Shown here: positions 15,943 through 17,179 of the stretch, piece by piece
Layout of the letters: the number at the start of each line of letters is the position of its first letter
Position numbering within the stretch: position 1 is the stretch's first letter
Assembly (NCBI GenBank): GCA_017510835.1
Contig: JAFWLZ010000031.1
Location: 1-35,482 of the forward strand
Source of the DNA: Candidatus Saccharimonadota bacterium
GTDB lineage: Bacteria > Patescibacteriota > Saccharimonadia > Saccharimonadales > Saccharimonadaceae
Direction: 5' to 3'
DNA length: 35,482 nucleotides
Notes under the pieces: model-generated
Told to the model about the DNA's origin: nothing
Seen by the model: only the letters and a program-made list of their open reading frames with translations
The model's database searches: none
Made by a program: the position numbers and the translations under genes

Positions 15943-16584
15943 TTAACTCCTCGCAATTACCGCAATTGCGAGGTTTTTTGCGCCTGCAGCGCGCATCGCT
16001 TCGCATGCCGCCAACATCGAGCTACCCGTCGTCCAAACATCATCTACTAACAAATACCGCTCCTGAGCATCTACTCCCACCGCCTCGTAGGCACCCAAAG
16101 CTTGTATACGTCGCTCATCTATCGTTGCTCCGACTTGCGTTGTATTGTTCCGTCTTTTCAAAACACATTTCATCGGTGAACCCATCTTCCGACACATCAG
16201 CTTAATATGATCAAAACCGCGCTCCCGGATATGTTTACCAATCGTTGGAAGCGGGACCAAAACCCAATCGCCATCAATCACGCCACTCAGCAAATCCGCC
16301 AATTCAAAACTCACCGAACGCACCGAATTATACTTATAAATCTCGATTAACCGTCGCAGAGCCCCTTCGCGTTTTCCGACCCAAAATTGCTTCGAAAAAG
16401 GCAGGGGACAGCTCGGACAAACATCATTAATTAGTCAACCACCACAAGCGATACATTTCCGATTATGTATACCTAAAATGTTATTTTTACAACATCCGCA
16501 TAGTATTCCACCTACTTTTCCACACGAAATACAGTTATGGGGGCAAAATAACTCGCTTATGTTCCTGACTATTGTATTTTTCAC
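15943..16584 (-). CDS. comF: ComF-family phosphoribosyltransferase interrupted by an in-frame UGA
   Basis: ComF-family proteins combine an N-terminal zinc finger with a phosphoribosyltransferase domain and are linked to DNA uptake. From a GTG at 16584, with an AAGGAGGG site 8 nt upstream, the frame encodes a cysteine-rich region (C14, C18, C21, C29, C31, C32, C44, C47) up to codon 49. Codon 50 is TGA (16437-16435). The same frame then continues with C56 and C59 of the finger, the conserved KREGALRRLIEIYKYN helix, VPLPTIGKHIRERGFDH and the PRPP motif YLLVDDVWTTGSS. Counting through the TGA gives 213 codons, the normal ComF length. Only part of the enzyme can be made from internal starts such as GTG 16323. 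It may be a nonsense mutation, a read-through codon or a sequence error. Its last codons form a terminator of the convergent gene. Confidence 0.75.
15949..15979 (+). terminator. terminator of the pilin-like gene, inside the 3' end of comF
   Basis: Stem CCTCGCAATT/AATTGCGAGG (15949-15958 with 15964-15973), loop ACCGC, then TTTTTT. On the other strand it encodes the last codons of comF. Confidence 0.88.
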
Positions 16585-16603
16585 AACAAAACCCTCCTTA
16601 CTC

Positions 16604-16632
16604 TTGATTTTAGCTGCAAAGCTCTCTATAAT
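16604..16632 (+). promoter_or_regulatory. promoter of the Hsp20 gene
   Basis: TTGATT (16604-16609), 17-bp spacer, perfect TATAAT (16627-16632). It is divergent from comF. No CIRCE-like repeat is seen here. Confidence 0.75.
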
Positions 16633-16672
16633 AAAGCGTAAGAGTGTAAAATAGTGGAGGAATTATTAGACT

Positions 16673-17179
16673 ATGGCTCGCAAACAAGACGAAATGAGCT
16701 TAGACGATGAGCTCACTGCCGCCTTCCTTTCCGAAGATGGCGACGCTGGTTTGGCTGACGAAGGATTGGTGGAATCCGCAGATGGCACTCCAGCAGAAGA
16801 AGTCTACGTAGAAGAAACCACCGAAGATAACTGGGAAGACGACACTGAAAATCTTCCAGGTCAGCTAGCTGTCGATGTCTACGAGACCGCTGATAAACTA
16901 ATTATTAAAGCCCGCACCGCTGGTATCGAGCGCAAAGATCTTGATGTCTCGATTTCTGACAATATCTTGACCATTTCCGGCATCCTTAGCGGTGGCGAAG
17001 ACGAGAAAGCTACTCAATGGCACATCCAGGAATGCTACTGGGGCGAATTCAGCCGCACCATCGCTCTTCCTGTCCAGGTTATCGAAGATGGCGTCGAAGC
17101 TGTCCTTAAAGATGGCGTTCTTACCATTTCCTTCGAAAAGGAAAAGGTCGAAGAGCCAAAGCGCATCACAATCAACTAA
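16673..17179 (+). CDS. Hsp20/alpha-crystallin small heat-shock protein
   Basis: Small heat-shock proteins bind unfolding proteins without ATP. The alpha-crystallin domain spans about residues 62-160: LAVDVYETADKLIIKARTAGI, DLDVSISDNILTISG, the characteristic ECYWGEFSRTIALP and GVLTISFEKEK, ending with the ITIN tail. An unusually acidic N-terminal region (about 1-60, LDDELTAAFLSEDGDAG...) replaces the hydrophobic arm seen in many relatives. The ATG follows a GTGGAGG site. Its neighbours are comF (divergent) and the pilin-like cluster (convergent). Confidence 0.93.
   Translation: MARKQDEMSLDDELTAAFLSEDGDAGLADEGLVESADGTPAEEVYVEETTEDNWEDDTENLPGQLAVDVYETADKLIIKARTAGIERKDLDVSISDNILTISGILSGGEDEKATQWHIQECYWGEFSRTIALPVQVIEDGVEAVLKDGVLTISFEKEKVEEPKRITIN

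Follow-up and report, generated by a model that had tools for sequence, protein, structure and literature searches.

The window, the whole stretch of 35,482 nucleotides analyzed here, is contig 17 of an 834-kb genome in 73 contigs (G000), whose named relatives are MAGs of Candidatus Saccharibacteria from gut and rumen. It contains a comF gene of the ComFC type that is interrupted by a TGA (Table 1). The GTG start with its strong ribosome site, the TGA at codon 50, the total of 213 codons, and the cysteine pairs on both sides of the TGA, all described in the initial annotation, were confirmed by re-reading the sequence. Beyond the TGA, the frame continues through a basic helix and the phosphoribosyltransferase domain to the end of the gene. 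The read-through translation matches the comF family TIGR00201 (E=4.4e-13, residues 29 to 207, at a score short of the curated 233-bit cut-off) and PF00156 (E=1.1e-7, above the cut-off). It combines a cysteine zinc finger with a phosphoribosyltransferase domain containing the PRPP motif, as is typical of the ComF/ComFC family, with both the cysteines and DDVWTTGSS conserved. The same two-part architecture is found in ComFC of Helicobacter pylori and other competent bacteria (PMC9005727). Handling of single-stranded DNA is the expected function, and a com system has been demonstrated for a related saccharibacterium (PMC10633639).

Table 1. Coordinates of the comF locus in the window and of comEC loci in the genus
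Feature	Position	Strand	Basis or remarks
comF (ComFC-type)	15943..16584	-	213 codons plus TAA, one in-frame UGA read through in the predicted product; translation, TIGR00201/PF00156, orthologues in 39 genus genomes
GTG start of comF	16584-16582	-	sequence
Terminal TAA of comF	15945-15943	-	sequence
In-frame TGA, comF codon 50	16435..16437	-	between CxxC pairs C44/C47 and C56/C59
Shine-Dalgarno site of comF, AAGGAGGG	16592..16599	-	sequence
TGTTGTGAAAAATACAAT, around the GTG start	16571..16588	-	identical in 19 aligned species
First zinc ribbon of comF (C14-K33), before the UGA	16486..16545	-	
Second cysteine knuckle of comF (C44-C59), holds the UGA	16408..16455	-	
PRPP-binding motif DDVWTTGSS, phosphoribosyltransferase domain	16018..16044	-	translation, PF00156
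Trp184 codon in DDVWTTGSS	16033..16035	-	TGG here; TGA in 6 relatives, TGG in 30 species
TTTACACTCTTACGCTTTATTATA, conserved block upstream of comF and of the divergent gene	16627..16650	-	near-identical in 39 genomes
Divergent gene (MARKQDEMSLDD...), upstream region common with comF	16673..17179	+	arrangement kept in relatives
comF peptide across codon 50, predicted from read-through, CIACGGWLINDVCPSCPLPFSK			
comEC, apparent leaderless start (L092)	G000 contig 21, 9760-11223		
comEC, apparent leaderless start	G041 contig 1, ~155,500		
comEC, apparent leaderless start	G043 contig 1, ~184,300		
comEC, apparent leaderless start	G014 contig 13, ~132,150		

The purine-rich Shine-Dalgarno site is present in nearly all UGA-bearing relatives, and the start codon is covered by a weak predicted hairpin that shows no covariation. 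Apart from this hairpin, no conserved RNA structure was found near the UGA. In most of the pairs compared, synonymous divergence over the first 49 codons (window 16435-16588) is 2 to 4 times lower than in the remainder of the gene, which together with the invariance of TGTTGTGAAAAATACAAT in 19 species amounts to a further constraint at the nucleotide level. The motif CTTA[ACT]GCTT occurs at 16634 of the window and at other intergenic sites; its form CTTAWGCTT precedes comF, the LTD gene described below, comEC, and dprA, and was discarded as a signal of the group after being found upstream of about 45 other genes as well.

Conservation and decoding of the in-frame UGA

Within the genus, 36 of 39 species carry TGA in frame in comF, and none of the 39 carries TAA or TAG. 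Most carriers have a single TGA (26 species), with two in nine species and three in one. These codons fall in 13 alignment columns, located in the zinc-finger region (codons 41, 42, 50, 52, 54, and 57) or further on (codons 68, 93, 128, 129, 138, an inserted position, and 184), and 30 of the 36 UGA-bearing species have one within codons 41 to 57, while the other six have UGA only beyond codon 57. Among the matches listed, comF of some 50 further genera in the family had no in-frame stop. Coding conservation continues past the stop, as seen in the alignments and in pairwise dN/dS values that lie well below 1 before and after the UGA alike (G000/G033: dN 0.064 and dS 0.511 before, dN 0.176 and dS 1.353 after), and no decay by TAA, TAG, or frameshift was found in comF of the genus. 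A private mutation or a sequencing error is therefore excluded as the origin of the UGA, since independent assemblies of 36 species carry it in a conserved frame. Of the three options left by the initial annotation, read-through is thus favored over a recent nonsense mutation and a sequence error.

The UGA sites turn over, with old ones being lost and new ones arising, so that comF seems to keep a UGA without keeping it in one place. An alignment of the relatives at codon 50, a check proposed in the initial annotation, gave TGA in 11 species and TGG in none. Over codons 41 to 57 as a whole, the UGA itself appears to be kept, because 30 species have TGA there and none has TGG. These codons have existed as TGA over about 8.1 substitutions per site of branch length, and with a TGA-to-TGG rate at tryptophan sites of 2.6 to 3.2 per unit branch length, a simple rate model puts the chance of seeing no TGG below P=1e-7. 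Likewise, only 1 of 37 comF tips lacks UGA, compared to 8.8 in simulations where UGAs are gained and lost independently along the tree; this paucity has P=0.0023 when the mean number of UGAs is taken as given and P=0.08 without that condition. The retention test for the LTD gene alone was not significant (P about 0.1).

Other sites are informative about what the codon encodes. Codon W184 of comF is TGA in 6 species and TGG in 30, and the column of W469 in the LTD gene has TGA in 15 species, TGG in 27, and no other codon; the species with TGG at W469 mostly have TGA elsewhere in the gene, often in the signal peptide. Unlike at codons 41 to 57 of comF, the stop is thus not itself kept at W184 and W469. 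As UGA alternates with TGG at conserved tryptophan positions, it is most likely decoded as tryptophan, at W184 and W469 at least. We consider it very probable from these alignments that comF is an intact gene whose UGA is read through as tryptophan. The decoder is most likely the ordinary tRNA-Trp(CCA), in competition with RF2: CCA was the only tRNA-Trp anticodon found, this tRNA is identical in 28 species over the 50 bases compared, and a search of the genus genomes for a suppressor tRNA with a UCA anticodon found none. In the UGA-free G006 and G025, one stem pair of tRNA-Trp differs, with pairing retained. A Hirsh-type G24A change or a 4-bp anticodon stem was absent from the tRNA-Trp of G000, read by eye.

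Several forms of recoding were considered and rejected. A genome-wide UGA=Trp code (table 4) conflicts with RF2 being present in 45 of 45 genomes, with tRNA-Trp being found only in the CCA form, and with UGA still terminating genes; the initial annotation had already observed that UGA ends other genes, and it does so for roughly 8 to 15% of genes in the sampled genomes. The suggestion that UGA might be read as glycine, as in Gracilibacteria (table 25), is contradicted by its alternation with TGG at tryptophan sites and not at glycine positions. A selenoprotein was discarded, there being no SECIS-like structure; the tRNA-Sec matches examined proved to be ordinary tRNA-Ser or tRNA-Leu, and those to RF01852 above the cut-off, where examined, were tRNA-Ser.

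We also looked for a stimulatory context at the UGAs, which is common, although not universal, in programmed read-through. No conserved structure was found downstream, and the next base is mixed. U follows the in-frame UGA in 10 of 97 cases, compared to 34% at genuine UGA stops, and this is explained by coding context, because TGG codons, too, are poor in a following U. Back-up stops after genuine UGA stops were more frequent (55% versus 33%), a difference that disappeared once closely following genes were excluded.

Other competence genes and release factor 2

The turnover of sites, as well as the UGA codons in dprA, comEC, and a surface-protein gene, were invisible to the initial annotation, which had only the window. 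In a domain-family search with stops read through, the DprA domain contained TGA in 20 of 41 genomes and the ComEC domain in 11 of 45, never TAA or TAG in either, and many genomes had no UGA in the domains scanned. The 5' end of comEC contains TGA in all four genomes read, at codon 3 in three and at codon 27 in one. These TGAs look like they stand behind leaderless starts, the start sites being assigned from sequence features; a TATAAT-like box lies 6 to 9 bases 5' of the ATG, with UGA as the third codon in three species. In Saccharibacteria, the core of the com system consists of ComEC, DprA, and ComFC, and in S. epibionticum the com genes are dispensable for growth, while transformation requires comEC (PMC10633639). 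The surface-protein gene (gene 2, the LTD gene), located about 5 kb from comEC, has an in-frame UGA in 34 of 42 genomes, here too as the only kind of internal stop. Its product combines an LTD domain (PF00932, E=1.8e-11) with a signal peptide and a membrane segment at the C terminus.

A survey by homology covered about 2.2 Mb of six genomes, comparing 1,168 genes that had a partner, in 374 families with 411,507 codons. Conserved in-frame TGA turned up in comF and the LTD gene only; the survey is blind to sites near gene ends, for instance those of comEC. When the criteria were relaxed to look for N-terminal UGAs, operon junctions produced too much noise. No internal TGA was found in prfB. From the survey and the prfB and com-gene scans, we therefore conclude that, within the sample, in-frame UGA is concentrated in the competence pathway. 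Two further observations concern single genomes. G000 has two DprA-domain matches, on contigs 1 and 3, with one TGA each, possibly because the MAG mixes strains (contamination 4%). In G012, a lone TAG lies at a tryptophan codon of an otherwise conserved gene (contig 11, 54710-54712) and looks like an ordinary mutation or an assembly error.

RF2 differs within the family beside the GGQ motif, in a comparison of L091 (G000 contig 18) and loci L311-L338. In 23 species of the main group, an arginine shortly before GGQ is replaced by histidine, with RF1 unchanged in the same genomes, and in 22 of these 23 an aspartate shortly after GGQ is also replaced by asparagine, G009 retaining the aspartate. 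Most of the family keeps both original residues, as do the UGA-free G006, G025, and G013 (RF2 YR..TD), which have no UGA in comF, the LTD gene, dprA, or comEC as scanned. In Escherichia coli RF2, changes of residue 246, which adjoins the arginine at position 245, alter activity in termination (PMC5373646), and prfB mutations in Bacillus subtilis, according to work cited in PMC7918605, lift UGA read-through from 6% to 19-54%. The altered RF2 may thus be a permissive factor. It is not sufficient and was rejected as the sole cause, because the H/N form also occurs in the sister genus, in 6 of the 7 genomes tested, where neither comF nor the LTD gene has a UGA. The association between UGA and this form of RF2 comes from few independent events on the tree.

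Possible role of UGA read-through in competence

If comF is intact, full-length ComF would need read-through of the UGA, with tryptophan inserted by tRNA-Trp(CCA) in competition with RF2. With UGAs in comF, dprA, comEC, and the LTD surface-protein gene, synthesis of the DNA-uptake machinery would be throttled at termination, and the two changes beside GGQ may weaken RF2 and so permit read-through. Since several proteins required for transformation are hit at once, their joint output would depend steeply on the efficiency of read-through, and competence could be coupled to RF2 activity, to Trp-tRNA charging, or to stress, or be restricted to few cells. On the present genomic comparison, we lean toward leaky UGA termination being retained as a translational brake on, or a switch for, DNA uptake. 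Retention with turnover, the lack of TGG at the early sites, and the concentration in one pathway may be read as marks of regulation; the lack of a stimulatory structure and the patchiness of UGA in dprA and comEC are marks against it.

The main rival to a retained brake is tolerance in dispensable genes, whereby UGA would be partly read as tryptophan throughout the genus and would persist, without any regulatory role, where low expression is harmless. In a cultured saccharibacterium, growth does not depend on the competence genes (PMC10633639), which lends some probability to tolerance under drift; UGA and TGG exchange freely at tryptophan sites, gene 2 fits independent gain and loss, and UGA is patchy in dprA and comEC. 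However, the early comF codons never turn to TGG, comF tips without UGA are too few, comF shows no decay by TAA, TAG, or frameshift, and the 374 families, which are expected to include other dispensable genes, have conserved UGA only in comF and the LTD gene, so that we regard mere tolerance as unlikely, albeit the most serious competitor.

The remaining explanations have much lower probability. The UGA could be a true stop that splits the gene, with a separate zinc-ribbon peptide and the enzyme domain made by re-initiation, and its location in 30 of 36 species, after a complete first zinc ribbon, would suit such an arrangement. We find this improbable in view of the six species with UGA only past codon 57, the exchange of UGA and TGG inside the enzyme domain and midway through gene 2, and a conserved internal start not being seen. 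Insertion of another residue (selenocysteine, glycine, or cysteine) by a special tRNA is still less probable: tryptophan is not proven at codons 41 to 57, where TGG never replaces UGA, but neither a UCA-anticodon tRNA, a tRNA-Sec among the matches checked, nor a SECIS-like structure was found, and UGA exchanges with TGG at other sites. As for a recent nonsense mutation, a pseudogene, or an assembly error, the genomes are indeed MAGs, but the agreement of 36 species, the purifying selection downstream, and the restriction to TGA leave it practically no probability.

Several known systems can be compared with the genus. In E. coli and B. subtilis, natural read-through of UGA as tryptophan similarly involves near-cognate tRNA-Trp(CCA) competing with RF2, whereas in the genus the UGA is conserved genus-wide, changes site, and is concentrated in one pathway. 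In bacteria, conserved read-through stops mostly occur singly. Belinky et al. 2021 (PMC7918605) described orthologous in-frame stops under purifying selection, as here, and proposed that they lower expression; the case they worked through is one orthologous TAG position, in contrast to the several genes of one pathway, with moving sites and UGA only, of the genus. Reassignment of UGA to tryptophan, as in Mycoplasma (code 4) or in the Patescibacteriota family JAKLIH01 (class Minisyncoccia, order UBA6257, not Saccharibacteria) (PMC13092985), gives the same UGA/TGG alternation, but the genus retains RF2 and ends genes with UGA, and in-frame UGA was found only in competence-linked genes. No report of UGA read-through in competence genes was found in the openly licensed literature, and we know of no in-frame stop in the ComFC genes of H. 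pylori and other competent bacteria.

More tentatively, and with rather less confidence than in the brake itself, we propose a translational regulon in which read-through of UGA, in cells whose RF2 is altered, would gate comF, dprA, comEC, and the LTD gene, the efficiency of termination deciding when, or in which cells, DNA uptake starts. Standard-code gene callers break UGA-bearing genes, so competence is probably under-annotated in this lineage. If the proposal is true, one codon would mark most of a pathway and be kept despite moving, which would amount to a stop-codon read-through switch at the level of a regulon, and competence in host-dependent Patescibacteria would be tied to translation termination.
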